Shown: positions 1-59,836 of the stretch, piece after piece
Numbering within the stretch: position 1 is the first letter of the stretch
Layout: each line of letters begins with the position of its first letter
DNA from: Kalaharituber pfeilii
Taxonomy: Eukaryota > Ascomycota > Pezizomycetes > Pezizales > Pezizaceae
DNA: 64,000 nucleotides
Assembly: GCA_015179045.1 (NCBI GenBank)
Contig: WHUZ01000040.1
Coordinates: 186,001 to 250,000 of the forward strand
Direction: 5' to 3'
Program-made: the position numbers and the translations under genes
The notes under the pieces: generated by a model
Database searches by the model: none
What the model was told of the DNA's origin: nothing
The model's input: the letters and a program-made list of their open reading frames with translations, nothing else

Positions 1-690
1 TCATAAAAAGCCAACTGCTTCCGAATGCGCCTTCGCTAGTATGCGGGCCGTTGTTCTCAAAAACTGGAAACAACTCTTGTATTTGTATCGTTTTAGGGCA
101 GATGGAGCTTCCGAAGGATTTGCAAGAAGTGTATCTGACTGCTCAACTTCACGGACACCCAAGGTAATGTTATCGGAATTGCGGAGGAGAAGGCAACCCT
201 GGGTGGAGCTGGACAGACAGGAAGAAAGGATAGCGTGGGGAGGCCTGGAGGTGGCGGTAATGTGGGTGAATGTAGATGGTGAGAGGAGAAGGAGGAGACA
301 GCAACACACATTTGGAACAGGTGTGGGGTATGGCAGAGGAGGTCGCCGGGTGGGCTGGAGAGAATATAAAGGCCCCCTGCGGCAGAGGGGGAAGGGGACT
401 CCCTGGTGGAATTGTTGAGGCACCCTCGCCATAGCCTACCAGGCGGCACGCGAGTAATGAAATAAAAAAAAAAAAAAAAAAAATTTGTTGAGGCAGATAG
501 AGAGATAGGCGCATCATAGGCGCGGGGATTTGCTCTTATCGTTGACTCTACTTCATGTCATTTTCTGATACTATTTTCATTTCTTCTCTCCTTTGTAATT
601 AATCTCGTCATAGCCAATAGGGTGGCTTACGAGTAGTGATTTTTTTTTTTTCTTGTAAAAAAACCAAAAAAAAACAAAAAAAACAAAAAA
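1..690 (+). mobile_element. LINE family A, 3' fragment (ORF2 end, 3'UTR, tail)
   Basis: This is the degraded 3' end of a LINE. Around 264-350 one frame reads as the C-terminal Cys/His knuckle of ORF2 (ECRW, a stop, then EETATHIWNRCGVW), as in the other family-A copies. The 3'UTR resumes after a nested 62-bp insertion (423-484) and ends in an A-type hairpin near 603-633, whose outer stem is CTCGT/ACGAG. A T-run and interrupted A-runs follow to about 690. The 5' end is outside the window. Stops and frameshifts show it is not coding. Confidence 0.75.
423..484 (+). mobile_element. Tail-only micro-insertion, family A
   Basis: About 40 bp of A-type hairpin tail starting CCCTCGCC, plus poly(A), is flanked by 11-bp direct repeats TTGTTGAGGCA at 412-422 and 485-495. 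It sits inside the 3'UTR of another LINE and contains no LINE sequence other than the terminal hairpin. Confidence 0.85.
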
Positions 691-3180: not shown

Positions 3181-3830
3181 GTAGGCCATTCAGGCAGTTC
3201 AAGCGATTCAGGAGCAGGAGGGCTGGTTTACGAGGCTATTCAGGCGGCCGCATTCAGGTCAATTGCACGTGGATTTAATACAAAGCTCTCCATATCCTCG
3301 GATAACGATCGGGACTTTTATTGAGCTGCGCTTTTTGCAGGTATTCAGGTAAGTAATTTTAGGTATCGCTTGCCTATATATTGATTTCTTTTATTACTAC
3401 AGCATGGAGACAGACATTCCAGCCACCAGCACCGGAGATCACAATTCCTTCGGTGACCTTTCTTCACTCTCCATAGTGCAGTTCAAGTTTTGATCTTGCT
3501 CTGATGCCGAAACCGTTACTTCTGGAATTGGGCTACAAAATCTGGTGCGATGACGTTGGATTTCACAGTAGGGTTTTTTTTTTTTTTTTATCACGTTACC
3601 CGCTTGCAGCTGTTCGCCATGGCAGGGCTTCACAGTAGGGTGAAGCTGTGTATGATAATGGAAAGCGATACTGGCGGTGCACAATCTGCAAGCGAAATCC
3701 TAAACATTAGAGAATGAGGTATATGTAGAAGTTAGAGTACGTTCTGTATATAGCTACTAGATAATTTAACTCATCACTGCAGCCTGAATGGCCTGAACCG
3801 GCCTGAATGGCCTGAATGGCCTGGACCGGC
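3181..3830. repeat. Possible fold-back element with repeated ATTCAGG/CCTGAAT motifs
   Basis: The left side (3186-3350) carries ATTCAGGC or close variants at least five times. The right side (3783-3830) carries the complement CCTGAATGGCC several times. The two sides could pair over roughly 30 bp with interruptions, as in a MITE or fold-back transposon with subterminal repeats. A nested micro-insertion lies at 3574-3628. No TSD was identified. Confidence 0.4.
3574..3628 (-). mobile_element. Tail-only micro-insertion, family B
   Basis: On the minus strand the 55-bp insert starts GCCCTGCCATGGCG, forms the B-type hairpin and ends in poly(A). It is bounded by 12-bp repeats TTCACAGTAGGG at 3562-3573 and 3629-3640. 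No other LINE sequence is included. Confidence 0.9.
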
Positions 3831-6800
3831 CGAGGCGGACCTCACGGCCGGCCTAGGTTTCTATGGCCCAGGCCGGCCAAGCCACACACTTGGTCCAGCC
3901 TAGCCGGCCCGTCGGGAACACTGTCTGATTCAGGTTCGACTGTTACTGGTGTTGATCCGCGGTACTATAGACATCCCAGCAAGGGAGGCCTTGCGGGCAG
4001 TCTAGCCTGGCCTGCTCATCGAGGTCCCACCCTATGTACAGCTTTGCTTTAGTCTATTTCTGAGGGCCTAACCGTTTTCTTATGCTAGTACGCCTCGTGG
4101 GAGGTTCTAACGTGGTGTGGAAGCATTTGTACGGTGGATCGGAACTTCAACATTGCTCAATGCTCAAGGCTGCCTTCAAGCAGGGAATCATGCAACTAGT
4201 GACCACGGAGTAAAGTACTTGCTGAGCCTACGTACGTAACCACCTGCACGCTGCAATTTATTGCTACTACACTGGTACTAGTATTGTTTCAGATGGCGTC
4301 GATACATGCATGTGCAGTCGGAAACGTCAGTGGGCCTGATCGGCAACAAGCGAAACGTACATGTACTCGTTAGGTTACTTACGTATACCAGCATTGGATA
4401 TGCCAAAGTTTCTGGCCGTGCGAGCTGTTCTCCACGCAGGAAAAAGAAATAAATAAAGCATCAGCGATGTAGGCCGCCCATCACATGCACACGGCCAGAA
4501 AAGCCGCATCATCCAGTGCTGGTGATGCATAAGTAGTTGGAAGTCATTTTCTGCATGAAAAATTGATGAGTACATTAGAGGGGTGTGCCTGCACCTGAGA
4601 CCGTCTACGGCGAAACTTTATCATATTGGCTGACGATTGTTTGGTCCAATCGTGAATCTTGCCGTAAGGCTCGCTCGCAGCAGGTTGCCTTGACATCGCC
4701 GTATCCCTGTCAGCACCCAAGGTACAAAAGAAAAAGAAAAAAAAAACTGCGGACTTGGAAAGATGCGGATTTGAAATATGCAATCGCAACTCAAGTTTTT
4801 TGATATGGAGCATACAGACTCAGTTTATTTTAGGTACCTATTCCTGAACGACTTTGATAAGGAATGACTAACACCCTAAGCGAGGGATGCAAGGCCGTCT
4901 AATGACCACGACTACGAAAAAGTAGTTTACAATTATCGGGCTCTAAGTGCAGTCCAATCAGCCGTATCTAAATATTTCTGAGTGAGGATCATGTGTGGAT
5001 TTTGTTAACGTACTCACCGGATCGTAAGGGTTGTTCATTCGCAAGATAGGTTGAACAGATAATTAGTCATACATTGAAAAGCGCAATATCTCACCTGTTG
5101 CAACGCATTAAATGGAATTTTCGGTAGGTTTGTGAAGAGAGAGTAGATTCAAATTTAGTTACATTAATTAACCTGTTATTACTCGGATAATGTTGCAAGT
5201 TGCTCGGACAGTACGGTGGCCCAAGCTTTCTACCATGTAAGATTTTTCGCTTGTATCCGAGCCTAATTTTGAGCAGGGTACACGCTTCCGATCGACGGGA
5301 GAGTCATCCCCGCATGCGGCTGCTTCCGCGCTAGGTACAGTGATACTGGGCTTGGTAACTAGCAGCTCTCCTATACTACAGCTGCCATAATTTCACGTTC
5401 TACCACATCACATGCCCAAGAACTTCCATGTAAAAGCCTCTGGGTTTAGATTTTTGGTTCAGGTAAAAACGATGCTGTTTTCTTGCCATGCTAATCCTGT
5501 CTGTGCTCTGGAGGACTGGCGTACATAATATCGCATTCTCCAAGGTGAATTATACATGCAATGACTCAGATGCCAATTTAATGACTTGAAACTGGGATCA
5601 ATGGTTCGGATATCTAGGCTCCACACCTTAACTTGTACCTTTGTATTTTTGACAGTATTGGACATAGCCTTGTCGCAGATCACCGGGGCAAGTAGGCAAT
5701 TAATGTTTAGACAAAACGGAAAAGAAAAGGGAAACGCCGCTCCCAACTCATAAATCCTTAATCATAGAGCATCGAAACCACCGAGAACACCGAAAACTAA
5801 TCCAGTAATCGACTCAGGATGCTCTGCCAATACCCGGTTATTCAAACTGGTACCTTGACCCCCGACCTGATCTCACGGTTCAGAAGGAGCAGTGAAAAGA
5901 AAGTGAAAAGAATTCAAAAAAAGAAAAATAAAAAATTCCTCCGGCGGGTGCCGTGTGATGTGTCATTTGCCTGCATGATGTCCGATCACTAGATCGCCGC
6001 CAGTGTACCACAAGGGACTGCCAATGACCTCAGCCTCAGGAACTAAAATCGGCAGTACTGACGATTACCCATTTGTTACGATGTTGAAGGAAGAGATTCA
6101 ACGGCTTTCTAGAATCAGTTCGTACTGTATTGATTACAGAATCCATACGACCTAGCATGGGAAAGCATGAATTCCTATCGTTATCGCAGCCGTCAAAGGG
6201 ATTGTCTTCGGCATGGCTCGATAATACTGGTACTACGTCCTCCGCCACACAACACTCTACGTTACACACTATTATTGTGGGTTCTTTAGTCGTCGTCATC
6301 GGGTAAGGCCCAGCCTCAGGCCATCAGATGCCTGCGATGCATCCTGCTATGCAACCCCATGCAGCTGCTAGGCCAACAAATGCACCTGCAAGGCCCGCCG
6401 GGCCAGTCCAATGGGAGTGCCGGAGTTCATACGCAGACTACTGTAATGCGGGAGATGATCGAGCGATAACCCCACATGCATCTTGCTTCGCAGTAACCAC
6501 AAGGCGGCTATCTTTATGGCTCGAGTCACCTGACGAACATAAGAACAACACCTCTCGCTCGTCTTTGCTTCCCAGTTGTCTCCTTGTCAAAGCCAGTGAG
6601 CACCTTAATACAGAACCAGAACAGACAATGGCGTCGCCCCCACGGCCAGCGCCAGTGAAAGACCCGGACAAACCCCCTCTATATCTAGACCGAGCCGAAG
6701 ATACCTTATGCTCGGGACAATTCAGGCCAATATACGGCGCCAGTGCGTAATGGGGCGCTTCAACGGTGCAACAATGTTCGAAGAAGCGATCATGAGGGCT

Positions 6801-7507
6801 TCAATTCCTTATTGTCCCTGAATTTTAAGCCGACACACAGGGAATCGAATTTTTCATGTGAATGAATGTTTCTCCATCGGTAGGGATCCCCAGCCAGCCC
6901 TTTATGGCCTTGCTTGGACGACCTCACTAACCAATGTAGTTGCTTATCGCGGATTAGCTGCCCCCTGTCAGGCCTCTGCCTGTTGTTCGAACGTCGTAGT
7001 ATTGAGGGCCTACCTGTAATGGTCAGTTGTCGCATCGACCCAGCATATGTTCGAATTCGAGAATGATGCTAACATATTGTTCTAGGGCTCTTCAGGTGGC
7101 CTCAATGAAAGCCCTGGATATATTTGATTTCGATCTACATGTGATACAGCTTCTGGGACTGAATTGGATGTATGGGTTAAACAAAGGTGGGATATTCATT
7201 AATCAATCTGCACAACAGATCTGGTGTGCACCCTGGGGGACGGTCTCGATACTTGGATGGAGGCTCTTTGGCATGTCCCTCCAAGGAGGTTCGAGAGTCA
7301 AGGACTGGACATATACTCCACTCCACGGACCCACCAATATCAATAGCCCCGCCGCAGTGCATCGTTGAACCCAAGCTTCTTTCACTCAATTTACCTGTCA
7401 CGAAGCTAAAACATCACACGCCCCCAATATTTGAGATACACATACCTTTTCCCCTTTCATAGCCGGAGGCAATCATCCTGCTGCTCACAACGTCGACAGC
7501 CCAGCTA
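3831..7507. other. Long stretch without a recognisable gene
   Basis: A GGCC-rich patch lies at about 3780-3910. The rest is unremarkable intergenic-looking DNA. The best open frame is an ATG-initiated 140-codon frame at 6328-6750 (+) of unbiased composition with no recognisable motif, so I do not call it a gene. 5' regulatory sequence of the zinc-finger gene at 7508 is presumably in the last several hundred bases. Confidence 0.4.
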
Positions 7508-8470
7508 ATGCAACCTCTACCCCCCATGTACCATCTTATCCCGTCAATGTTGGGCCCTACTCCAGATATGGGCCGCTGCATGCAGGCAGCAATTCAGTGG
7601 GACGAAATGGAAAAGCTTCGCTCCCAGCTCTCTTCGGACCCAGATTGTATATCATCGAGAGGAGTGCTAATGGGCTTTCTGTATGCAAACGGTCCGATTT
7701 CCGAAGCGGGATCACCAGCTCAGCAATTCAACAATGTAATGCCACCAGCAAACTGCATCGATAGCAGATATCTGGCGACTCTGAGCCCAGATCACCTTAC
7801 TGGCGATATGGGCATTAGGCAAATACCTACGCCCCCGCCGTCCCCTAACGTCGACTTTTTCTTCGCGTACAACAGTCAAATGCAAGGAGACATCCCGGAA
7901 TCGCCTCCTGATATGACCTCTGATTCCAGTCTTGCAACAATGTCTCCAATATCGACTATGATGGAATTCGAAGAGCCGACTATGATGGAATTCGAAGAGC
8001 CGACTATGATGGAATTCGGAGAGCCGACTATGATGGAATTCGAAGAGCCGACTATGATGGAATTCGAAGAGCCGACTATGATGGAATTCGAAGAGCCGAC
8101 CCCTGCAGAAACCGACGAGTCATCTTCGACTTCAGTCGGGTGCTCGCCCACACAACTCGAATTGCCGTACGCGTATCCGTGCCAGGGCTGTACGCGCTCC
8201 TTCCTCAAGAGGCACGAAAGGAATAAGCACTTCAAAGAAGCTCACCTCAAACCATTCCTCTGCTCTTACCCTGGTTGTGCCAAGGTGTGGCCTAGCCGAA
8301 AAGATTTAAGACGGCACGTTAATGCTGTTCACTTGAAGCTTGCCTTGTATGAATGTACTGAGTGCGGGAAGCAAGGTAGCAGAAGGGATAACTTTCGAGT
8401 GCATATGGAAAAAGTCCATGGCATTGAAAAACCGCAGCTGGGGCAATTACTAAAGCAATTACCCGCATAA
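7508..8470 (+). CDS. C2H2 zinc-finger protein with an octapeptide repeat
   Basis: This is a probable nuclear DNA-binding protein of 320 aa. The N-terminal half is Pro/Ser-rich and acidic. Residues 150-197 are six perfect-length tandem octapeptides, TMMEFEEP (one copy has EFGEP), encoded by a 24-bp minisatellite at 7955-8098. Three C2H2 fingers follow: C-x2-C-x12-H-x4-H starting YPCQGC, C-x4-C-x12-H-x4-H starting LCSYPGC, and C-x2-C-x12-H-x4-H starting YECTEC, with TFIIIA-like TxEC and YPGC spacing. The ATG at 7508 is the first good start and the frame is uninterrupted with no obvious intron. The acidic repeat may serve as an activation segment, which is inference. The target genes cannot be inferred, and the neighbouring sequence is transposon-derived. 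Confidence 0.85.
   Translation: MQPLPPMYHLIPSMLGPTPDMGRCMQAAIQWDEMEKLRSQLSSDPDCISSRGVLMGFLYANGPISEAGSPAQQFNNVMPPANCIDSRYLATLSPDHLTGDMGIRQIPTPPPSPNVDFFFAYNSQMQGDIPESPPDMTSDSSLATMSPISTMMEFEEPTMMEFEEPTMMEFGEPTMMEFEEPTMMEFEEPTMMEFEEPTPAETDESSSTSVGCSPTQLELPYAYPCQGCTRSFLKRHERNKHFKEAHLKPFLCSYPGCAKVWPSRKDLRRHVNAVHLKLALYECTECGKQGSRRDNFRVHMEKVHGIEKPQLGQLLKQLPA
7955..8098 (+). repeat. 24-bp coding minisatellite, six units
   Basis: Six head-to-tail copies of a 24-bp unit encode TMMEFEEP. Only one substitution (EEP to GEP in unit 3) separates the units, which suggests recent expansion or homogenisation. The length is a multiple of 3, so copy-number change keeps the frame. Confidence 0.95.
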
Positions 8471-8756
8471 TTTCTCTTTCCTGTTGTTCGCGGTCATCGT
8501 CTTTTTATGCGTGTTGTGTTCATTTTTCCCCACCTCCTCTTGATATGCACGATGTTTTCATGTATTTTTCTGTTAGGTTTACAGGTTTGTCAACAGGTCT
8601 TTCTTGTCATGAATTCAAACAAGGAATACCAAAAAAAAATTTAAAAAAGAAGAAAAATGAAAATCAAAAACTCCGCAAAGTGGAAATTTAGCAGCGAATA
8701 GATATCTTGAATTTTCCATGCCTTCCTCTAACCACCTTTTGTCATATTGGATGGAT

Positions 8757-8923
8757 GTTTGCGAACTGGAAGATCGTAGTCTCGAACTAGACTTACTGCT
8801 AAGCTCACTCACCCACCACCCACCATGCAAAGAGCTCGCATAGTGGCCTTTGTGCAGTGAGTGGTGGGTCAGTCCGCTAAGCGATAAGTCTGGTTCGAGA
8901 TTGGGATCTTCCAGTGCGCAAAC
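8757..8923. mobile_element. MITE with about 45-bp imperfect terminal inverted repeats
   Basis: The left arm starts TTTGCGAACTGGAAGATC at 8758 and the right arm ends GATCTTCCAGTGCGCAAA at 8922. The arms stay complementary with a few mismatches for about 45 bp (including the CTCGAAC-AGACTTA block) around a short loop. It has no coding capacity. A related half-copy (ACTAAGCGGTAGTCTGGTTCGAGACTG) lies near 14614-14642. Confidence 0.75.
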
Positions 8924-9406
8924 CCCCAATACCACTAAAGAAGCGGCAGATTATGGTTTGAGACTGGGAAATCTAGTCTGAGGCCATGCCCCTGCCTGCC
9001 AATCTCTCGTTTCGAGCGCATGGCAGCCAGCGGCCTTGCATGGGGCTAGGGAAGTCTTCTCTGTTGACACGGTAAAGTCTAATGTGTATTCTATCCACTT
9101 CGTTCTATTTGTTTCTATCTATCCCTATCTACTGTTCCTTTACTCTAGATATTCTAGATGTTTCAATGTGCAACCAGATTTAGTAGCTCTGAGTCAGATG
9201 AGGCTTTATAACGGGAGAAACCAAGGGTTGCAAAATTGCAAATATAGGAGACAGAGAAGCAAGTTGAGGCGATGATTCCAGATTTCATGCCAGCATCGGG
9301 CCAATATGCATCGTGCGCCTACAAATTTTCCTATATGCCCCTCCTGTACGTATCTAATTTTCTCGTTGGACGGTCAAGCGCATTTCTTGTTATTTTCTTT
9401 TTACTT
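8924..9406. other. Gene-free stretch
   Basis: I see no coding signal or repeat boundary between the MITE and the degenerate LINE tail that follows. Confidence 0.35.
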
Positions 9407-9470
9407 AGTCTCGTCATAACCCACTGGGTGACCGCATGAGTGATGATATATATAGAAATATTAAAACTTT
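9407..9470 (+). mobile_element. Degenerate LINE family A tail
   Basis: CTCGTCATAACCCACTGGG, then GCATGAGTGATGATATATA, keep the A-type hairpin outline with substitutions. The A-run is short and interrupted. No TSD was found. Confidence 0.5.
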
Positions 9471-9949
9471 AAACTATTGAAAAATGACATTGACTCAAGG
9501 TAAGCTTATCTTCGTTATTATTAGTATTTGTGTGGGCCATATACGGTACTGTAAACCCTTATACACGCAAATAGCCTATGACAGTTGCTGAACCTTCTCT
9601 TACTCCAGACTCATAAGACCGACGAGGTCAGTCTATCAGACTGATAGTGGTAGTAGCAGCCAACAGTCACCTGATCCTCTACGGTTTTCTCTGGAGCAGT
9701 AGAAATTGGCCGTATTTTATAATTTTAACGCGAAATTAGCACACCAACCCGATCATAACGAAATACAATGGTAGATATTCTAGATACAATACCGTAAATA
9801 TTCGAAAATTCCAAATCCTTAGAAATAAAGTTTCTACAGTTTCTGCGATCATTGCAAAGTACTCTGCATACCTTTATTCGGTGACAGTAGTGGAAATCCG
9901 TTCTCTTTCCAACCGGATTCTAATGCACAATTTCGGTTTCCAGGTCTGG

Positions 9950-10670
9950 GTTCCGGATTCTTGCCAGTCGGTCAATAACTGGGCTACTCATCACTAGGAC
10001 GGGCCACCGGTCAATTTACTAGGTTTAAAGACCAAGAACGAGCCAAGATGCATAATTAGACATGAGTAGAGAGGTTGCTTACAGTACATGATTTCTTAAC
10101 TGACATGCATATTTTTCTTTCAATGCTCGCTTACCACACTGACATGTACGAGGAGAAACGGACTTGATCAGACCTCCAAAAAGCGACGGAGACGCACTGG
10201 CAGACATTCTAGACTGGGCGGAACAATAAGGTTTATTTACTAATTCTCACCAATTCTTCTACTCTTCATTGTGAGGAGGACGCGGGATTCTATTTCCTTT
10301 ATTTCCTTTACTCCTTATGCACATGTAACTAAATCGCCATAGCCCATAGGGCGGCAAGCGATCACTGATATATATAAGAAAAAAAAAAAAAAAAAATTAA
10401 CATGTATAATGCTAGAAACATCGCTCCGTTACATGATTTTTAAGTGATATGCATAGTACTATGAACATCATCATTTTCCTCTTGATGCACCTGATCATCT
10501 GAATCTTCTGTAGTCCGATTTTTGACAATCCACATCAGGATAACAAGAAAGTGAACAGGTACGTAGGCCCTTCCTGCACCCATATTGCTGGAGTATACAT
10601 CCTTCTCGACAGGAACAGTTTCCTGAGGGTTAATTGCCAACTTGAGTAGTGTTGCCACATTGAGATAAAG
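9950..10670. repeat. Dispersed repeat, copy 1 (interrupted by a LINE)
   Basis: 9960-10125 and 10420-10600 match 44860-45020 and 45095-45265 closely, including the blocks GGACTACTCACCACTGGGAC and CTCTTGATGCACCT and the minus-strand peptide block VHQE. A family-A LINE fragment splits this copy. The family is not recognised. It may be the remnant of a larger transposon. Confidence 0.6.
10150..10399 (+). mobile_element. LINE family A, 5'-truncated fragment
   Basis: LINE 3'UTR, an A-type hairpin (GCCATAGCCCATAGGGCGGC at about 10332-10351) and poly(A) end at 10399. ACATGTA occurs on both sides (near 10143 and 10401) and may be a short TSD. Confidence 0.65.
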
Positions 10671-11504
10671 TTTTTTATACTGCCGTACGTAATGCTATTG
10701 ATGCCAAAGAAGGATCAGCGGGTGGAAAGGTTGCCAGTTCTTCTGCTTGAATCTCAGGTGTGACTATAGTGAGATACTTTGTAGTATAATGGTGATTCAG
10801 GCATCCAAACTGGTGTGTAGAAGATATTGATCAGAGCGAGAGTTGCCGACAATGACAAAAGATCGATTGCAGTGTTGTAGAGACTAGAGGTAACGTTCAA
10901 ATTTTTGCTGAATATCTAGACTGAAAGGCTCAACGGTTGAGGGGCATCTTGAATGGGCAAGGAGGGAGAGTAATGAGAGGAGGTAAGGTGGCCTTGGTTT
11001 GAAACGAGGGACCGGTTTTTGAACTTGCATAGGACAGGAAGAGATGCCAGTGATGGAGGAGTGTAGGGAATGCGATGACAGTGAATATCTCGCGGCATCC
11101 TGTAACTAAAATTAGGATTTTATATACTGAATCAGTATATTTGCCAAGACAGAAAACGTGAGCGGATACAAGTGGTTCTCTGTACTGTAGGGCGGCGATA
11201 AATGTAAATTTTTCAATCAAGTATGCAGGGCATGCATTTAGAATTCGGACCAGTAGCCCGGGCCAACCAGCACAAATATGAATGGCCCAGGTCACTCATC
11301 TTGGAATGTGGACCACTGGACCGGGCCATCCACTTTTGTGTGGAGGAAAGGGCTGGCCCCGAACATACCAACTGAAATTCAGCAGTGTTGGGATGGGACT
11401 CGTAAGAAGAACCCACGCTGATCGTGAGTGAATTCAAGTGCTTTGACGATAGTCCAGTACTTATATATCTATACACCATGCACAATCATGGTACAGAGGA
11501 AAGA
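10671..11504. other. Gene-free stretch
   Basis: Short frames only. A GGGCCA-rich segment at 11250-11360 resembles the edge of the repeat at 44860 but I cannot define its limits. Confidence 0.35.
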
Positions 11505-11615
11505 AGGCCTTTTTTTTTAAAAGAAGAAAAAAGTACCATTACTGGTTTCCCGCCCTGTGGGCTATGACGAGGTTAATTACAAGGGAGAAAAATGAAAGAA
11601 ATAAATAAAACAAGA

Positions 11616-11651
11616 TTTTTTTTTATTTTTATATCAATACTCGCATGCCGC
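11616..11651 (-). mobile_element. Shortest tail-only micro-insertion (36 bp), family A
   Basis: On the minus strand the insert reads GCGGCATGCGAGTATTGATA followed by an A-rich run, which is only the 3' half of the A hairpin. Repeats of 13 bp, AAATAAAACAAGA, flank it at 11603-11615 and 11652-11664. Confidence 0.85.
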
Positions 11652-11720
11652 AAATAAAACAAGAACAAAGCAACGTAAAGCCCAGGCATGAGGGAAAAAT
11701 TACAGTATCTCTATCTACCT

Positions 11721-11791
11721 GCCCTGCCATGGCGAATAGCTGCAAGTGGGGTTACGTGACAATATAAAAAATAAAAAAAATACAAAAAAAA
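11721..11791 (+). mobile_element. Tail-only micro-insertion, family B
   Basis: The insert starts GCCCTGCCATGGCG and contains only the B hairpin, GTTACGTGA and an A-rich run. The flanks CTCTATCTACCT (11709-11720) and CTCTATCAACCT (11792-11803) form a TSD with one mismatch. Confidence 0.85.
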
Positions 11792-12059
11792 CTCTATCAA
11801 CCTAAAGAGCTGCACCACGGATCCCCTTCAACCTCTCTTGCCGCCGGGGGCCTATATATCGCTTCCAGCCTTCCTGGCCACTTCCTCCTACATACCTCGA
11901 ACCTGTTGCAAATGTGTGCTGTCGTCTCCTCCCCTTCCCAGCATCACCTGCATTTGTGAAGGAAGTGAGATCTATTTCCCTCCGCAGCCTTACGCTCGGC
12001 TCGTACAGAAAACCTCAAGCCTCCCCCGCCCCATCTCATCCTTCAGGATGCTCACCCAC

Positions 12060-12205
12060 ACTACTAACTAGACATAAAGTATGACTTCATATCTTACATC
12101 CCATTCATGAGTGCAGAATTACATTGCGCCTCCATGTCTTCTTCTAGTGCATCTCCATCATCATCACCATCCTTGTTAGCTTCAGTAGCCTTACCAGAAA
12201 TATCC
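12060..12205 (+). repeat. Direct repeat unit, copy 1 (paired with 13785-13960)
   Basis: ACATCCCATTCATGAG, GCAGAATTACA and TTAGCTTCAGTAGCCTT occur in the same order and spacing here and at 13785-13960. The two units bracket the minisatellite block, suggesting a local duplication of unknown origin. Confidence 0.65.
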
Positions 12206-12354
12206 AGTAGCAAGACTACAGCGATAGAGATGGAGCTACAGATGGCGGTGATATCGGAAATATAATAATATCAGCACCGAGTTCCTCAATATCAATAGAC
12301 CGCTCTATCTTGTCCTAGTAATATCTTCTTATTATCTTGTTGTTTATATACTAA

Positions 12355-12866
12355 TAGTCCTGCTGCCGTTGCCATCACTGTAGCCCTGTCGCTATAGTCC
12401 TGTCGCTGTCGCTGTAGCTCTCCTGCCATCGCTACAGCTCTCCCGCTGTCACTCTAGTCCTGTCACTGTCTCTATAATCCTGTCGCTGTTACTCTCCTGC
12501 TGTCGCTATCACTGTCGCTGTAGCTCTCCTGCTGTTGCTATAGTCCCGTGGCTGTAGCTCTCCTGCTATCGCTGTCACTGTCGCTGTAGCTCTCCTGCTG
12601 TCATTGTAGCTCTCCTGCTGTCGCTATAGTCCTGTCGCTGTCGCTACAGCTCTCCCGCTGTCGCTATAGTCCTGTCGCTGTAGCTCTCCTGCTGTCGCTG
12701 TCACTGTCGCTGTAGCTCTCCTGCTGTCGCTGTAGTCCTGTCGCTGTTGCTATAGCTCTCCCGCCGTCGCTGTAGCTCTCCTGCTATCCCTATAGCTCTC
12801 TCGCTGTCGCCATAGTCCTGTGGCTGTCGCTATAGTCCTGTTGCTGTCACTATAGTCCTGTTGCTT
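12355..12866. repeat. Degenerate minisatellite of CTGTCGCTGTAGCTCTCCTG-like units
   Basis: About 500 bp consist almost entirely of permutations of CTGTCGCTGTAG, CTCTCCTGCTG and TAGTCCTGTCG in irregular order. A second, shorter patch of the same family lies at 14015-14160 beside the duplicated unit. I see no coding role. Confidence 0.9.
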
Positions 12867-13071
12867 TGTGCGACAACCGTCGCTCCACCCTGAAGCCGTC
12901 GCGCGACCCATTTTGCAGTCGGGCGACAACCGTCGCTCCACCCTGAAGCTGTCGCGCGATCCATTTTGCAGTCGGGCGACAACCGTCGCTCCACCCTAAA
13001 GCTGTCGCGCGACTCGTTTTGCAGTCGGGCGACAACCGTCGCTCCACCCTGAACCTGTCGCGCGACCCGTT
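12867..13071. repeat. 53-bp tandem repeat, nearly four units
   Basis: Units begin GCGACAACCGTCGCTCCACC and repeat every 53 bp with a few substitutions. The array is broken at 13071 by a LINE derivative and continues for part of a unit at 13594-13612. Confidence 0.9.
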
Positions 13072-13562
13072 ACTCCCACCCCAGCGCCCACGCCTAAGAC
13101 AAAACCTCCCCACACCCCCAAATCCCCACCTCCAACCGCTCCCGATGCCAACACCTCAAAGACCGGCATCGTAGTCCACGGGATAGCCCTGAGGAAAGAC
13201 CTCGTGAAGGTCCGACGATGGATGGAGGCAGCCAACCAGGATCTAGGAAAGATCACGGGGATTCGATGGCTGAGGAAGAAGGCAACTTTGATTGAGGAGG
13301 GAAAAAAGACAAGCTCGGTGGTGGTGTACTTGGAGGAGGCATCGAATGTAGACAGGGTAAGACTGGGAGGAAGATGGCTTCGAGCAGGGCAATACGAATG
13401 GGATAGAGGACGGAAGTGAAGGACACCCCATCCCGTATTGACATTTCACCCGCATCATGTACGAGCACCGCGGGCACTACATATACTTATCGGCTGTTTT
13501 TATTTTCTCTTTCTTTTTAATAAACTCTTGCCATAGCCCATAGGGCGGATTGCGAGTATTGA

Positions 13563-13593
<31 letters not shown>
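13072..13593 (+). mobile_element. ORF1-only LINE derivative (RRM fragment fused to tail A)
   Basis: The insert has 11-bp TSDs, CGCGACCCGTT, at 13061-13071 and 13594-13604. It encodes, in one open frame to the stop at 13419, a Pro/Thr-rich linker (TPTPAPTPKTKPP) and an RRM-like ORF1 domain (GIVVHGIALRKDL, GIRWLRKK, KKTSSVVVYLEEA, YEWDRGRK). The coding region has no stop or frameshift. The ORF ends where LINE ORF1 proteins normally continue into CCHC knuckles. A 100-bp 3'UTR, the A-type hairpin and a long poly(A) follow. By analogy with Tad-type ORF1 it would bind RNA, which is inference. Confidence 0.85.
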
Positions 13594-13784
13594 CGCGACC
13601 CGTTTTGCAGTCAGTTGCCACTAAGTTCGACGCCTCAACTACTTTGTACCGAATGCAATATTGATCCATTTTTAGATTTGCAAGACCCATTCTAACTACA
13701 AATCTAATCCTTTCATCTTGATACTTAATGTGCTCGTTTGTGCTCGTCATTTGCATCATAGCTTCCTCATACCTTCAGAATGCT

Positions 13785-13960
13785 CACCCATCCAGGACGT
13801 AAGATATGACCATATTTTACATCCCATTCATGAGCGCAGAATTACACTATGCCTCCATATCCTCTTCTAGCGCACTTTCATCATCATCCTTAGCTTCAGT
13901 AGCCTTGTCAGAACCATCCACCCCGTGGCCGGTCCCTCCTATAACAGTAGTATCCGAACT
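13785..13960 (+). repeat. Direct repeat unit, copy 2
   Basis: This is the second copy of the unit at 12060-12205. It shares about 150 bp with substitutions and small indels and is followed by another patch of the CTGTCGCTATAG minisatellite. Confidence 0.65.
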
Positions 13961-14160
13961 CTCACGGCTATTAGTCCCATTTACCGCCTCATATTGACTT
14001 GCCGGAATCATTGCTTCTAGCTCTCCTGCTGTCGCTATAGCTCTCCCGCCGTCGCTATAGCCCTCTCGCTGTTGCTATAGTCCTGTTGCTGTAGTACTAC
14101 CTCTGTTACTACAGTCCTTCTGCTATCACTGTAGTTCTACCTCTATTACCCTGCTTCTAT

Positions 14161-14221
14161 GCCCTGCCATGGCGAACAGCTACAAGCGGGGTCATGTGAT
14201 ATTAAAAAAAACAAAAAAAAA
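14161..14221 (+). mobile_element. Tail-only micro-insertion, family B
   Basis: The 61-bp insert starts GCCCTGCCATGGCG and contains the B hairpin, GTCATGTGATATT and an A-rich run. Perfect 13-bp TSDs ACCCTGCTTCTAT lie at 14148-14160 and 14222-14234. Its 5' end is identical to those at 11721 and 3628 (minus strand). Confidence 0.9.
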
Positions 14222-14488
14222 ACCCTGCTTCTATCACCCTGCTTCTATTGCCCTACAGCCATAACTGTAGTCCTGTTGCTAGCGATTTTCCCTTAATGCC
14301 CTTTGATTACTCTCCAATACAATTAATAATTGGCTTGTCTGCTAAAGCTATTCCTAGGCCTGGCTGGGGGTAGTTCCACTTGATCCAACTTTGATACTTC
14401 AGTATCGTGGGCTGCAGATACATACCACTTAGTTGCTATTACATATTATGCTAGTCTACACTAGTGCATTCCACTACCTAGCGTCACC

Positions 14489-46073: not shown

Positions 46074-46113
46074 AGGGCGGCACGCGAGTAATGATATAAA
46101 AAAAAAAAAAAAA
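46074..46113 (+). mobile_element. Tail-only micro-insertion (40 bp), family A
   Basis: The insert begins inside the hairpin (AGGGCGGCACGCGAGTAATG), then ATATA and poly(A). Perfect 13-bp TSDs TTAGCTAATGAGC lie at 46061-46073 and 46114-46126. Confidence 0.9.
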
Positions 46114-51095: not shown

Positions 51096-51108
51096 AGAAT
51101 CCTCACTT

Positions 51109-51162
51109 TTTTTTTTTTTATATATCATTACTCGCGTGCCGCCCTACGGGCTATGGCGAGGG
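51109..51162 (-). mobile_element. Tail-only micro-insertion, family A
   Basis: On the minus strand the 54-bp insert starts CCCTCGCCATAGCCCGTAGG and contains only the A hairpin, TAATGATATATA and poly(A). Perfect 13-bp TSDs AGAATCCTCACTT lie at 51096-51108 and 51163-51175. Its 5' end is the same base as in the insert at 423. Confidence 0.92.
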
Positions 51163-53213: not shown

Positions 53214-56075
53214 ATGGACAGGGAGGTATATGTAATGGACAGGAATATAGTGTGGGGGATAGACGCTATCCACACATGGGAAAGGAAGGATTGGTGGCTG
53301 GCGAGGCTGGGAGAGGGGGAGGATATGATTACGGTGAAAGAAAGAGTACAGAGGGCATACAGAAAGGGGGGAGAATATGATGGGAAGTTGGATATGATCG
53401 AAGAGATTAGAAAGGAGGCAGTGGAGGCAGCAGCGAGGAGGGGAGCAGAGGAGGTGGAGTGGGTAAAGACGGAGGAGCTCACGGGGATCGCGGAGGTAGC
53501 AAGGGTCGTAAAGCTCTGGAGTGAGGATGCGGCGATGTTCCGGAGGTATGTGGAGGGGGAGGATGGAATCGTGGTAGAAAGAGAGACAGAAGTTCTAAAG
53601 AACGCGACAAGGGAGTGTATCACAGTCAAGAGGGGACCGTTAGTGGTTTTCCAGAAGCAGCAACGGGTTCCTAGGGTCACGAGAGTGATGATGAGCTGGG
53701 GAAGGAGGAGAGAGAGGGGAGGCAGCAGGAGCAGGTCTCCATGCGAGGGAAGGGGAGGAAGGAGGGAAGGATTCAGGGATAGGAGCGGGGGGGAATGGGA
53801 GATCGGAGATTCACAGCTGGGCGTTGGGCCGGTGGCAGAGGCGCCGGCAGCAGCGCCGGTGCTAGCTAGGGTGGAGGAACGAGGAGAAGAGAAAGAAAAG
53901 GTAGGTGGAGCTGAGAGGGGAAAGGAGGAAGAGGAGGATGAGGAGATGGGGGAGAATGAGGAAGAGGAGGAGGACGAAGAAGGGGTGGGGAGGGAGGAGA
54001 AAGAGGTGCTAGCGCTCGTGCATGCGGCACAGGTGCTGGATGGGAGAGTGGACAAGCTGAGGAAAGAAGGGAAGGAAAGAGAGGCGAAGAGGCTGGGGGC
54101 AGCATGGGTATGGGTGACGGCAACTTTGGGGGAAGCTGCCTTTGAGAAAGGGTGGAAGGCACTGAAGGAGAAGGGGGGGGAAGGGGAGAGGGTGTTGGAA
54201 TATAGGAGGAGGGCGAAGATGACGGGGAGGGAGATAAAGGAATGGAGAGAGGGGGTGAAAGAGGTCAGGAAGGAGTGGGAAGAGACTAGGGAGAGTGATA
54301 TGGAGAAAAGAATGGGGAAGCTGGAGGGAATGGTCCTGGAGATACATGCAGCGATGGGACTGGCATCGGTGAAGGAGGAAAGGGCACTGGAGAGGGAGAA
54401 GAAGAAGAGGGAGGAAGAGAAAAGGGAGGAGGAGAAGAGGAGAAAAAGAGAAGCAGAGATTCGGGAGATCCGGAAGCTCCAGGAGGAGACGGAGAAGAGA
54501 AAGAAGAGGGAGGAGGAAAGGTGGAGAAAAGCAGAGGAGGAGAGCAAGAAGAGGGTAGCGGAGGAGCGGAGGAAGGCGGTGGAGAGAGCACAGGTGCTGA
54601 GTAAGGTGGCAGAGGTGATGGAGATGCCGGCGGGATCACAGGAGGAGGTGGCAGCCCTGGAGGAGAAGGAGAGGAAGCTGAAGGAGGAGGAGGAGAAGGC
54701 GGCAAAGGAGGCGGAGAAGAGGATTGAGGGGGAGAACTGGACAGTGGTAAGGGGGAAGAAGCTGTGGAAGAGGATGCTGAGGACGGTACATGCGAAGCCG
54801 GTACCGTATGGAACGGAGGGGACAGAAGAGAGGGACGTCCTCCTGAAGAGGTGTGAATCTCTTTGGGAGACATCAGCGAAGGTGGAGGGAGAGAGGGGGT
54901 GGAGGGTAACACAGGTAACGAGGAATCCAGCGGCGTCGAAGTACGAGAGGGTATGGCTGCTGGTGGATATTCGGGAGGAGGAGAAAGCAAAGGAGGTAAT
55001 GGAGAAATTCGGTGCATGGATGAGGCTGATCTTTGGCGAGGATCTCCTAAAGGTGGAGGTTCACAACAAGGATGCGGTCCCTCTAGTGATGAAGGGGGCG
55101 GATTATGAGGATGGGAGGGGAGAGGTGGAGGTGATGAGGAGAAAGCTGAGGGAGGAGAACCCGGATGTCAAGTTTGGGTCGAGACCACAAGTGCGCTTTG
55201 GAGTAGCGCCATCTATGGGTCCGCCGAGGGTGTCGCAGTTAAAGCTCGAGGTGGTGAATGCGGATGAGGCGGTGAAGGTGTTGAAGAAGGGGTTAGTGTG
55301 GAGGGGACAGAGGAGGGTGGTAGAAAGGTACCGACCGGGAGTGCACATGCAGGGGGATGGGCGGGCGAGCTATGCCAATATGGCGGCAGCAGGGGCAGGT
55401 CAGCAGGGGCAGCAGCAGCAGAGGGTGGACGTGTATCCAGGGGGGCAATCCATCCTACCGAGGGTGGCGGTGGCTTTCCCGGGAGCAGGTCAGCAGGTGC
55501 AGGTGCAGGTGAGAGGAACGCAGGGGAGCAGCCAGGAGAGCCAGGGGACAGGCTGTTACAGGTGCGGAAAGAAGGGGCATCTGGCAAGAGAATGCAGATT
55601 CCAGAAGGGCCAGATGGCGTGCTATGCATGTGGCATGTGGGGCCACATTGCGAGATTCTGTCCAGAGAGACCGAAACCGGTGACTCCAAACCAGAGCCAG
55701 AAGAGGGAGAGGGTGGAAGAGACACCGATGAAGAAGAAGCAAGAGGAGGGAAGCAAGGCGGTGAAGGTGGTAGAGGGGGGGAAGGGCAAGGAGAAGGAGG
55801 TAGGAATGAAGGAGACCGGGGTGAAGCTATCCAGTGTCCTGTCAGAGAACTGGGATGAAGAAGCGGCAAGGTTAGGAGGCTTCTTGAGGGAGAGGAGGGG
55901 GGGGGAGAGGATGGAGATAGATGCGAGAAGTGATTTGGAAGGTCCAGACACCGACCTACCATTGAGTTGGGAGACATATTCGGGAGAGCGCCTCGGGATG
56001 GGTGGGAGGCTGAGAGTAGTGGGGTACCAAGTGCGTCATGGTGAAGGTAGGGTACCTGAATGTGGGGGGGAGTAG
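53214..56075 (+). CDS. LINE ORF1 nucleic-acid-binding protein
   Basis: The 953-aa frame is uninterrupted. In order it shows an N-terminal region of unknown role, an acidic patch (EEEEDEEMGENEEEEEDEE near residues 240-260), a long charged helix likely to form a coiled coil (roughly 385-490, REKKKREEEKREEEKRRKRE and on), an RRM-like domain (about 620-710, ending KGLVWRGQRRVVERYRPG), a Gln/Gly-rich linker, and two CCHC knuckles (CYRCGKKGHLAREC near 781 and CYACGMWGHIARFC near 801). It would coat LINE RNA in the retrotransposition particle. ATG 53214 is the first in frame. A better N-terminus may start at ATG 53158 (MSVEEEVPKMQF) if a one- or two-base indel near 53210 is corrected. It overlaps ORF2 by 38 bp. 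Confidence 0.85.
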   Translation: MDREVYVMDRNIVWGIDAIHTWERKDWWLARLGEGEDMITVKERVQRAYRKGGEYDGKLDMIEEIRKEAVEAAARRGAEEVEWVKTEELTGIAEVARVVKLWSEDAAMFRRYVEGEDGIVVERETEVLKNATRECITVKRGPLVVFQKQQRVPRVTRVMMSWGRRRERGGSRSRSPCEGRGGRREGFRDRSGGEWEIGDSQLGVGPVAEAPAAAPVLARVEERGEEKEKVGGAERGKEEEEDEEMGENEEEEEDEEGVGREEKEVLALVHAAQVLDGRVDKLRKEGKEREAKRLGAAWVWVTATLGEAAFEKGWKALKEKGGEGERVLEYRRRAKMTGREIKEWREGVKEVRKEWEETRESDMEKRMGKLEGMVLEIHAAMGLASVKEERALEREKKKREEEKREEEKRRKREAEIREIRKLQEETEKRKKREEERWRKAEEESKKRVAEERRKAVERAQVLSKVAEVMEMPAGSQEEVAALEEKERKLKEEEEKAAKEAEKRIEGENWTVVRGKKLWKRMLRTVHAKPVPYGTEGTEERDVLLKRCESLWETSAKVEGERGWRVTQVTRNPAASKYERVWLLVDIREEEKAKEVMEKFGAWMRLIFGEDLLKVEVHNKDAVPLVMKGADYEDGRGEVEVMRRKLREENPDVKFGSRPQVRFGVAPSMGPPRVSQLKLEVVNADEAVKVLKKGLVWRGQRRVVERYRPGVHMQGDGRASYANMAAAGAGQQGQQQQRVDVYPGGQSILPRVAVAFPGAGQQVQVQVRGTQGSSQESQGTGCYRCGKKGHLARECRFQKGQMACYACGMWGHIARFCPERPKPVTPNQSQKRERVEETPMKKKQEEGSKAVKVVEGGKGKEKEVGMKETGVKLSSVLSENWDEEAARLGGFLRERRGGERMEIDARSDLEGPDTDLPLSWETYSGERLGMGGRLRVVGYQVRHGEGRVPECGGE

Positions 56076-59000
56076 CCTGGTAGGGCACGTGTGGAGGGAG
56101 AACGTTTTTAAGGAGCGGTGGGAGCTGGGTTTTGAGGGAGAGGTGTGGAAGAGGGAAGAGCAGACGGGGTGGAAAACAGGGTCACATCCAGGACTCACAA
56201 GAGTGGGAGCAGTGGGCCCGGGCACGAGGATCGTGGGCTGGAAAAGGGAAGGGGAGAGGGGAGAGAGAAGAGGGGGTGACAACGTAGTTTGGGGAAGGGT
56301 AGGGGAGGTAGTGGTAGGGGGGGTATATGTGGACGGGGGATGGAGGGAGGAGGAGTTTGAGGCGTGGTTAGAGAAGGTGTTGGAGGTGGAAGGGAAGTGT
56401 ATACTCCTAGGAGACTGGAATGCACACAGCCCGATGTGGAGCCTCGAGGGGACCGGAGAGAGTGGGAGGGGGAGAAGGTTAAGGGAAAGGATGGAGGGAG
56501 CGGGTTTCAGCCTCAAAGGGGAACGAGCGGGGACATGGAGAAGGGAAGTCGAAGGGAGGCTAAGGGAGTCCAGGATAGATCTGGTGTGGACGAGGGGCTT
56601 GGAGGGGGTAGAGGTGGAGCTGTGGGAGGTGGCTCGGACCACTCGGCGCTAGTGGTGGATTTCGAGAAGAAGGGAGGGGGAGAGGGTGCCGAGGAGAGGG
56701 TGCGGGTGGACTGGGAGAAGGTGGAGAAGGAAGTGAAAGGTTGGGAGGGGAGTGGGGAGAGGAGGAGAAGAGGGAGTGGCTGGAGAGAGTAGGGGACGGA
56801 AGTGCATATGAGAAGCTGAAGAGGTGGAAGGGGACGGTGGAGAGAAGGGTGAGGGTAGGGGGAAGAAGCAAGAGGTGGTGGACGGAGGAGATTGAGGAGA
56901 TGAGAAAGGAGGTCAATAGAATGGCACGGGGAGGAGTAGGGGCCAGGGCAAGATTGACGGACGGGGAAAGGGTAAGGGGGGAAGGCAGCAGTGAAAAGGA
57001 TGAAGTGGAAGATCCGGGAGGAGAAGAAGAAGTGCTGGAGGGAGTTCGTGGAAGAGGAAGGGTATAGCGACCCGTGGAGGGTGGTGAGGGTGGCGAAGGA
57101 CCCTTTCGGAGGAAAGGAGAGGATGGGAAGGTTGAAAGATGAGGAGGGGAGGGAGTTGGAGGGGGATGGAGAGAAGGTGAGGACGCTGGTGGAGAGGAAT
57201 TTTGCGTGGAGGGAAGAGGGGGACGGCAGAGGCGGGGGAGGAGGGGGAGGGGGAAGCGGAGGGGGAGGGGGACGAGAGGGAGAGGGAGAGAGTGGAAGGA
57301 GAAGTGAGGGCTGCGTTGCAGGGCACCAAAAACAATTCGGCACCGGGACCTGACGGAATCGGATACCGATTGATCAAAGCTGCCCTGAAGACTCCCATCG
57401 GAGATGAGTTAGTGAGGGAGATCGCCGAAAACTGGATCCGGAACAGGACCCCGGCGGAGTGGAGGAGATGAGGGTCGTCATGATACCGAAGCCAGGCAAG
57501 GACATCAAGACGGCGAAAGCGTGGAGGCCAATCAACCTGATTAATTGTATCGGGAAGATCGGGGAGAAAGTCATGGCCAGCAGGCTACAGAAAGAAGACC
57601 GACTCTTCCACAGGCTCCAGCTGGGAGCACGCAAGGGGAGGAATGCGATCCAGGCGATGGCGAGGGCGGTGACAAAGGTGCAGAGGTGCCTGCACAGGGG
57701 GGGGAGAGCAGCGTGGGTGACGGCGGATGTTAAAGGAGGCTTTAACATCGTGAGGAAGGAGGTGGTCCTGGGAAGGATTGAGGAGAGGGGGAGCGAGGGG
57801 GTGAGAAAGAAGCGGAGGTGGCTGGAGGAGTTTATGGGAGGCAGGGAGTTCGGAGTTTGGTGGGATGGCGAGGAGAAAGGGAGGGGCAGGTCGAACGTGG
57901 GGGTTCCGCAAGGGTCACCACTGTTACCGGTCATCTTCCTCATCTTCATGGCTCCCACCATTGAGAAGATGGAGAGAAGGCTGAGGGGGGTGGCGATGGG
58001 GGCAGAGGTAGAAGTGCCATCGTATGTCGACGACCTGGCAGCAACGATCCTGGACTGGCACGGGTACTGGGATATGGGGCAGCTCAGGGAGAAAGTGAAG
58101 GTGGCAATGGCGGAGGTGGCGGAAGAAGATCAGATCCCGCTGGAGGAGTCGAAGTGGGAGATGATAACTTTCGGAGTGGGGAAAAGGTGGAAGAAGGAGG
58201 GGGAGATGCTGAAGTGGCTGGGAGTCATTTTCGACGAGAAGCTGACCTTCAGTGCGCATTGGCGAAATAGGCTGAGTAGGGCGAGGAGGCTGGCGGGGGC
58301 ACTCTCAGGACTGGGAAACCGGGACTGGGGGATGTCACCACGGAGCTGGCGGCAGGCGTACACAGGGATGGTGAGGGCGGTGGCGATGTGGGGGAGTGAG
58401 ATCGGGTGGAGAGGCCAGAAGGAGTGGAAGAAGGAGATGGAGCGATTACAGCTGCAAGTTTTAAAGAGAGCAGCTGGAGGGGGGAGGGGTGCCGGGGTGG
58501 AAGGGGTGAATGCGGTTTGCGGAGTGGAAGACGTGGAGACGGTCCTGGATGGCGCGCAAGCGAGAGCGATCGTCCGGGAGGTGGAGGCGCCGTCAGAGCT
58601 GGCGGAGCTTTGCACGGGCGACTTCGGAGGGAGTGAGGAGAGAGAGGAGGAGGCGAGAAACTGGAGAGACTGGGGGTGCAGTGGGCGGTGGCCGAGAATG
58701 ATGGGTATGAAGCAGTGCTGGACCGCTGGCAAGGTCAGTGGGCGAGGTTCACGGAGGAGGGGGAGGAGATCTCGTGGGGAGGGGGGTGTGAGAAGGTGGA
58801 GGTGGAGACCGCGGTGAGGCTGGGAAGAAAGAAGGGGGGAAGGGAGGAGTGGGAGACCTCGGTTGAGGAAGCCGGAAGAGGGAGGGCGGTCCTTTTCTCG
58901 GATGGCAGCAAGATCGAGGATAGCAAGGTGGGGGCGGGTGTATGGGGGAGATCAGCGGTGGTAGCGGAGGTAGTAGGGAGAACGGCGACGGTTTTTGACG

Positions 59001-59646
59001 GGGAGGTGAGGGGGGTGAGAAGGGCGCTGGAGGGTGTACCGGAGGAGGTACCGGTCCTGGTTTGCTTAGACTCTGAAGCTGCTGTCATGGCGATTCAGAA
59101 GGCAGGCAAGGAGGGAAAGGGAAAGACGGAGGATGTGAGAAGGGTGGTGAATGCAGTGGCAAGGAGGAAGAGGAAGGGGGTAATGCGAAACTGATGTGGG
59201 TTAAGGCTCACATTGGGATTGCAGGAAATGAGAAGGCGGATGAGTGGGCGAAGAAGGGGACGGTGATGCAGGGGAAGGAGGTGGCCACCGGAAGTGGGGT
59301 GCGCCAGAGGGTGAAGGCGTGGAGGGAGAAGAGAGAAGTGGAGAGCTTTGGAGGAGGAAAGGTCATGGAGTGGAGTAGGGTGGCGACATCAAACTTCACT
59401 GCATTGCGACTGGAGCGAGGAAGGTGTGCAGTGTGGTTGAAGAGGATAGGGGCGGCTGAGTCGGATAAGTGCAGGTGCGGGGAGGTGCAAACCGGGGAGC
59501 ACCTCGCTTTCCGATGCAGAAACCAGAAGAACCGTCCAGAAGGCTTTGAGAGGTGGGGCGACATGGAAAAGAATTGGAAGAGAAAGGCGGAGAATGGGGA
59601 GGAGTATGACGTTTTGGAGAATTTCTTCGCTGGGGTCAAGTTCTAG
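56038..59646 (+). pseudogene. LINE ORF2 (endonuclease, reverse transcriptase, RNase H) with frameshifts
   Basis: ORF2 starts at ATG 56038 inside the end of ORF1. The EEP endonuclease shows VGYLNVGG, LLGDWNAHSPMW and SRIDLVWTRG, then a shift to the frame with GSDHSALVVDF. The pre-RT region (WWTEEIEEMRKE, KCWREF, VVRVAKDPF) crosses further shifts. Reverse transcriptase has KNNSAPGPDGI, VVMIPKPGKD, TADVKGGF (motif A), GVPQGSPLLPV (motif B) and YVDDLA (motif C), all catalytic residues kept. RNase H has FSDGSK, FDGEV, CLDSEAA and MWVKAHIGIAGNEKAD, and the terminal knuckle is CRCGEVQTGEH...C. About seven frameshifts are needed (near 56600, 56760, 56970, 57220, 57470, 58680 and 59185), mostly at G-runs. 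I saw no nonsense substitutions between the motif blocks. Confidence 0.88.
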
Positions 59647-59767
59647 AAGGTAGGAGAATGCGGGGTCAAGTTCCAGAAGCTAGGAGAGTGGGGGCGACGG
59701 CGCGTGGGGGCCATGTACGTAGAGAGTTAGTTTAGCCTGTCTCCGGGCTATGAGGGCTTGCCCAGGG

Positions 59768-59805
59768 ACCCTGCCATGGCTTAGTGCTACAAGCGGGGTT
59801 ATGTG

Positions 59806-59835
<30 letters not shown>
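59768..59835 (+). terminator. LINE B 3' hairpin and poly(A)
   Basis: CCCTGC pairs with GCGGGG as the outer stem and TGGC with GCTA as the inner stem, followed by TTATGTGATTATA and poly(A). This is the presumed recognition structure for target-primed reverse transcription. Confidence 0.7.

Positions 59836-59836
<1 letters not shown>

Follow-up and report, generated by a model that had tools for sequence, protein, structure and literature searches.

The window analysed here is a stretch of 64,000 nucleotides from Kalaharituber pfeilii (positions 186,001 to 250,000 of the forward strand of contig WHUZ01000040.1, assembly GCA_015179045.1), and it contains three short inserts made up of nothing but the B-type terminal hairpin of long interspersed nuclear elements (LINEs) and an A-rich tail. 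Each insert consists of the hairpin GCCCTGCCATGGCGAAYAGCTRCAAGYGGG(G)T, a short linker bearing GTGA, the tail and a flanking repeat of 12-13 bp, the target site duplication (TSD). We checked the inserts base by base, and both the coordinates with their separate TSDs and the common 5' base reported in the initial annotation were confirmed: all three begin at GCCCTGCC.

3562..3573, no strand: first TSD copy of the first insert, TTCACAGTAGGG
3574..3628, minus strand: first hairpin-only B insert, A-tail at 3574-3589, hairpin foot at 3628
3629..3640, no strand: second TSD copy of the first insert, TTCACAGTAGGG, 12/12 identical
11709..11720, no strand: first TSD copy of the second insert, CTCTATCTACCT
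11721..11791, plus strand: second hairpin-only B insert, with an A-rich tail
11792..11803, no strand: second TSD copy of the second insert, CTCTATCAACCT, 11/12 identical to CTCTATCTACCT
14148..14160, no strand: first TSD copy of the third insert, ACCCTGCTTCTAT, beside a degenerate tandem repeat
14161..14221, plus strand: third hairpin-only B insert, with G as its first base, the linker CATGTGA and an A-tail
14222..14234, no strand: second TSD copy of the third insert, ACCCTGCTTCTAT, 13/13 identical

The third insert is the weakest of the three, as its TSD word reappears just downstream within the degenerate tandem repeat. Degenerate tandem arrays of 20-bp and 53-bp units lie at 12355-12887 and 12870-13071 of the window, and a related array adjoins this insert.

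We scanned the whole assembly (78.03 Mb, 360 contigs) for further copies. The exact 29-letter B hairpin was found 603 times and its reversed control not once; GGGR, mostly a sign of a longer copy, stood just upstream in 261 of the 603. A second search pattern, which left the 5' end free by using the 3' arm only (GCTGCAAGCGGGGTMACGTGA), matched 188 places, of which 70 were examined and form the M set. In 50 of these 70 copies the homology to the LINE tail stops at the hairpin foot, 43 times at exactly one base and three times one base further, while four copies (L061, L087, L120 and L143) fall off the main base through chance matches or a changed base. The remaining 20 comprise three copies that begin at the foot of the second hairpin, two that begin inside the hairpin and 15 that are longer or rearranged, six of the last kind (L066, L077, L078, L085, L111 and L131) having one 3' flank in common. 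The first base is G in 58 of the 64 M copies whose homology ends 15-22 nt upstream. Query bias was rejected as the cause of the peak because the decisive set was picked by the 3' arm only, and duplicated copies were rejected because the 50 foot copies represent 49 flank groups. A fixed start at the hairpin foot is thus in excess of chance. The initial annotation had called for such a genome-wide plot of 5' ends against TSDs, and the smooth distribution of truncation points that it named as the contrary outcome is not what was found.

The second hairpin upstream of the terminal one (HP2; the terminal hairpin is HP1) serves as a start in L062, L136 and L149 of the M set and in five further copies (L022, L051, L052, L055 and L070). 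The foot of the weaker third hairpin, HP3, was not seen as a start among the copies inspected, the 70-copy M set included. Single foot starts also occur on W-like hairpins (L010, and L078 by eye) and on a C-type hairpin (L009). As a separate observation, the B-type copies L108, L138 and L141 begin inside the hairpin, and so does an insert at window position 11653 (minus strand); the inside starts of B-type and A-type hairpins (the latter described below) lie mostly near the 3' strand of the inner stem, a possible minor third start point. The M-lineage linker TCACGTGA (for example in L005 near 1533) forms a perfect palindrome, which we take to be an E-box-type motif and which is possibly due to chance.

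The target repeats were evaluated in 78 distinct copies with M or T tails, all with homology that stops 15-26 nt upstream of the anchor; two or more of these copies (L102 and L126) are internal deletions and not foot copies. With a TSD score of at least 8, foot-anchored repeats were recovered in 60 of the 78, compared to 4 of 387 pairings with the 3' flank of another copy. This control led us to reject chance TSDs, a further outcome that the initial annotation had named as telling against it and that the data did not bear out. The repeats are 8-17 bp long, mostly 11-16 bp, and such variable length, together with an A-tail as one end of the unit, does not agree with miniature inverted-repeat transposable elements. 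The A-tail, the TSDs (60/78) and a 3' end common to a LINE identify the inserts as LINE-mobilised retroposons, products of target-primed reverse transcription. The junctions of the 60 copies were blunt in 29, overlapped the element by 1-5 bases in 19 and carried one or two extra bases in 12. None of the 12 has the templated G beside the element, an outcome with a chance of about 3%, two of the 12 being one duplicated event. Head-to-tail units (hairpin, A-run, partial hairpin, A-run) were noticed at 1501-1566 of L071 and near 377-447 of L095 and L096 (minus strand), the latter two resembling one duplicated event; such units could have arisen by jumps between templates or by insertion into an A-tail that was already present.

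The window also contains a long LINE of the W lineage, whose 3' end is of the B type:

53214..59836 (outer limits approximate), plus strand: long W-lineage LINE with B-type 3' end, coding pieces in several frames
59733..59750, plus strand: HP2 hairpin (TAGCCTG...CGGGCTA) of this LINE
59754..59763, plus strand: HP3 (GGGC TT GCCC) of this LINE, by sequence only, the predicted fold pairing otherwise
59768..59799, plus strand: terminal B hairpin (HP1) within this LINE, with A as its first base and a foot homologous to the hairpin-only start

Its coding pieces resemble zinc-knuckle, endonuclease, reverse transcriptase and RNase H proteins; profile matches to zf-CCHC, RVT_1 and Exo_endo_phos_2 were above the cut-off and a partial match to RNase H was below it. 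Within its reverse transcriptase region, 95 residues are identical to part of a K. pfeilii protein. The source LINEs look Tad1-like by domain order, a label that we presume from a zinc-knuckle ORF1, an APE-type endonuclease, a reverse transcriptase and an RNase H. The 3' end shared with an endonuclease- and reverse transcriptase-bearing LINE is seen through the related W hairpin; for the G lineages, those with first base G, the link is to RNase H-like coding, which lies upstream in L007 and in the duplicated unit L077/L078/L085, all of them long copies.

An independent small-RNA gene, that is, a true mini-SINE (short interspersed element) of about 40 nt with a promoter of its own, might supply the template for the hairpin-only copies. 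In agreement with this idea, contigs C1-C157 contain 42 complete hairpins of the M lineage, and GGGR is missing upstream of 37 of them; among the five that have it, L037 is itself a foot copy, with GGG as the last bases of its target repeat; furthermore, the AAC_CA tail variant was found on 16 foot copies and one long copy, biased loci included. The three commonest tail variants of the M foot copies (51/64), however, are carried by long copies too, while some rarer variants are foot-only. Neither a transfer RNA in the window nor an Rfam match at the inserts was found when we looked for a SINE body, and a copy of 40 nt would leave little room for an internal promoter. One gene also does not explain why foot starts recur in the A-type family described below. 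We consider such a gene unlikely; the hairpin-only copies look like 3' ends of LINEs and not like one autonomous mini-SINE. Thus, where the initial annotation offered a choice between a discrete RNA of about 45 nt and a stop of the reverse transcriptase, the fixed 5' end and LINE-type integration held up but the independent mini-SINE gene did not.

The A-type family is represented in the window by three inserts:

423..484 (right end approximate), plus strand: A-type hairpin-only insert with TSD TTGTTGAGGCA, beginning 2 nt before the stem
51104..51162 (left end approximate), minus strand: A-type hairpin-only insert with TSD AAGTGAGGATTCT, beginning 2 nt before the stem
46074..46112 (right end approximate), plus strand: A-type insert whose truncation point lies within the hairpin, close to the 3' strand of the inner stem, with TSD TTAGCTAATGAGC

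One strict pattern of the A-type hairpin has 3307 matches in the genome, and 92 copies were examined. For 49 of the 92, no repeat reaching score 9 was present within 600 nt, and these copies were left unplaced. Of the 43 repeat-bearing copies, 19 begin around the foot, at 13-20 nt above the anchor, five inside the hairpin and 19 farther up within 600 nt. A free-position control on B-type copies reached a score of at least 9 in 95 of 1461 mispaired trials, so that a few of the 43 repeats may be due to chance, though such repeats would scatter over the 600 nt. Most starts are 0-2 nt away from the stem, with three or four further bases in L020 and L029 (by eye). The closing pair of the A-type stem covaries (C-G in 43 copies, A-T in 24, other in 10 and unscored in 15 of the 92), perhaps through a few events inherited by many copies. 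The insert at 51104..51162 is situated about 67 nt downstream of the 3' end of a 5S rRNA gene (51229-51348, minus strand).

The start at the foot is lineage dependent, strong with first base G and weak with first base A. In the pool of distinct M and T-tail copies with a retained 5' arm of the hairpin, which includes loci from a biased first query, copies with first base G were 70 foot and 16 long, and copies with first base A were 5 foot and 24 long (Fisher 8e-10), with at least two of the five (L102 and L126) being internal deletions. The upstream GGGR gave a similar contrast: in the first 100 of the 603 exact hairpins it was present in 4 of 19 M-lineage hairpins versus 46 of 81 others (Fisher 0.009). 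The T-tail set, 38 distinct copies of 756 places, was drawn from several kinds of loci, some of them biased, and includes W copies. T-tail copies are mostly long; of those with first base A the foot class holds only two of 23 (foot and long together, some of W lineage), namely L102, an internal deletion, and L050, whose first base is ambiguous. The W-lineage hairpin has 226 matches with its tail given and 191 with GGGA upstream and the tail free, and although these patterns are not nested, the counts suggest that most W copies are long.

Structure predictions place the beginning of a 7-bp stem at the first copied base, both for the isolated hairpin and for the TAAC tail in LINE context. For the shorter G-lineage tails HP2 (7 bp) and HP3 (4 bp) are predicted to form together. 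The structural account of the start is good for HP1 and less sure for HP2. Predicted pairing of HP1 is 0.96-1.0 in the G lineages, 0.76-0.79 in W and 0.55-0.60 in T, a weak comparison of few lineages. A nascent cDNA that folds back after copying the inverted repeat, and at the foot detaches from its template, would likewise yield stops at the feet of HP1, HP2 and the A-type hairpin. Going by the base pairs, however, the G-U pairs of the G-lineage RNA would turn into A-C mismatches, making the cDNA hairpin weaker exactly where foot copies are most frequent, and we regard fold-back as very improbable.

The reading to which we lean, at a level of confidence just below even, is target-primed copying of a LINE RNA that had already been trimmed or cut back to the hairpin. 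Either decay in the 5'-3' direction or a structure-specific cut, for which cleavage at the foot of the stem by an RNase P-like activity is one possible agent, would remove the 5' part of the LINE RNA up to the foot of a stable hairpin, mostly HP1 and sometimes HP2. The element's own enzyme would accept the shortened RNA, with the 3' hairpin and poly(A) as the putative recognition signal by analogy with stringent-type LINEs; reverse transcription would then proceed to the 5' end of the template and the cDNA would be joined to the target blunt, with one or two extra bases or with a slight overlap. We favor this shortened-template reading because the start is confined almost to a single base, because a second start exists at HP2 and, weakly, because HP1 pairing is predicted to be higher in the G lineages. 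The foot excess in the A-type family (19/43) we also count in its favor, as a sign of generality, along with the covarying closing pair of the A-type stem and the extra junction bases that never place the templated G beside the element. For R2, PMC11331408 proposes that templates lose their 5' part before cDNA synthesis and that a stable fold at the 5' end holds off 5'-3' exonucleases. At Rfam gathering thresholds, weaker matches not being searched, the window, including the LINE 3' end, returned only 5S rRNA. A ribozyme like that of hepatitis delta virus at the foot was rejected: no Rfam match was obtained at the gathering threshold and, by reading, too little sequence follows the stem.

The other explanation to be weighed is that the LINE RNA is intact when the reverse transcriptase begins, and that the enzyme regularly leaves it at the foot once the terminal hairpin has been copied. 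A fungal precedent is found in Magnaporthe (PMC2104539), where each of six template-switch sites of the LINE MGL was shared by two chimeras, with strong hairpins predicted just upstream of switch sites. In the shorter tails of the G lineage HP3 could form 4 nt upstream of the HP1 foot. Internal deletions that drop HP2, HP3 or the 5' strand of HP1 were observed in L071 (1450-1570), in L118, L126, L134 and L146 (near 100-171) and in L093 and L102, as if the reverse transcriptase had skipped hairpins; those in the long copies L071, L118, L126, L134 and L146 would suit a stop at structured RNA. The lineage dependence could be explained by differences between the reverse transcriptases of the lineages. 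Several observations speak the other way: copies of the T-tail set whose first base is A retain HP1 and, in the T lineage, also the hairpin-forming GGACUUCGGUCC with its UUCG loop at the same distance, yet they rarely enter the foot class; long A-type copies are AU-rich upstream, with no obvious next hairpin there (by eye); and the extra bases seen at 12 junctions never read as the next templated G. We regard a stop of the enzyme as the main alternative, somewhat less probable than a shortened template.

A number of results weigh against a shortened template. For the TCAC tail, folded in LINE context, the stem is predicted to run at least one pair past the start, and the best predicted folds of longer strings do not form HP2 and HP3 together. 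Overlaps of two or more bases were found at 12 of the 60 junctions where about four were expected by chance, an excess that would favor a stop of the enzyme. Extra untemplated bases are known at other LINE junctions (PMC3510499); they would fit a stop of the enzyme as well and therefore discriminate weakly. Template jumping at a run-off end would be expected to give dimers, and AAAAAA directly before the foot was matched only once. The starts of A-type copies scatter, and some copies begin inside the hairpin (L006, L028 and L058 among the A-type). Lastly, copies with first base A have the same hairpin core and are mostly long, so that the hairpin alone is insufficient. The extension of the stem in LINE context and the lesser weight of the extra bases weaken the shortened-template reading and strengthen the case for a stop of the reverse transcriptase.

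Several elements of this system are familiar. LINE 3' hairpins as recognition signals and their parasitism by SINEs are already known (PMC4176376 and PMC2104539), and 5' truncation of LINEs is as well. Ordinary 5'-truncated LINE copies made by target-primed reverse transcription have the same LINE 3' end, A-tail and variable-length target duplications, but here the truncation points are not spread, with 50 of 70 M copies at one foot and 19 of 43 in the A-type family. The SINEs of the UnaL2 and ZfL2 systems (PMC4176376) and Mg-SINE with MGL (PMC2104539) are short non-coding units ending in a LINE 3' end that presumably recruits the enzyme; unlike them, the present unit has no separate body that we could see and is the hairpin alone, about 40 nt with an A-tail. 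The MGL switch hot spots of Magnaporthe grisea (PMC2104539) also give fungal LINE fragments with identical 5' bases near predicted hairpins. In MGL, however, a different RNA supplies the 5' part and the motif is GCC*A/U, whereas here the copies join target DNA directly at the foot of the terminal hairpin. R2 templates with a stable 5' fold (PMC11331408) resemble our proposal in that the structure at the 5' end is proposed to resist 5'-3' decay, though that system is engineered and in our case the 3' terminal hairpin would itself provide the protection. Hairpin-foot copies as the main product were not encountered among the titles and abstract openings listed by searches of the open-access literature.

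Frequent 5' truncation of LINEs poses an old question, whether reverse transcription or the template is incomplete. The single 5' base shared by most sampled copies of one lineage, with sister lineages of the same hairpin core mostly without it, makes the truncation question testable. It is conceivable, with a probability somewhat short of even, that the stable LINE 3' hairpin of about 40 nt survives as a discrete, 5'-trimmed, polyadenylated RNA that is a preferred template of the LINE enzyme, and that such decay intermediates, and not full-length RNA, founded hundreds of insertions. The hairpin units would then rank with the smallest retroposed units known, and 5' truncation could occur before and not during reverse transcription. 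If the template was indeed shortened, the hairpin-only copies would be fossils of RNA decay intermediates.

Elsewhere in the window, an open reading frame of 612 amino acids at 48209-50047 is covered over most of its length by DUF4246, and a zinc-finger protein has an 81% match to a Kalaharituber pfeilii protein.

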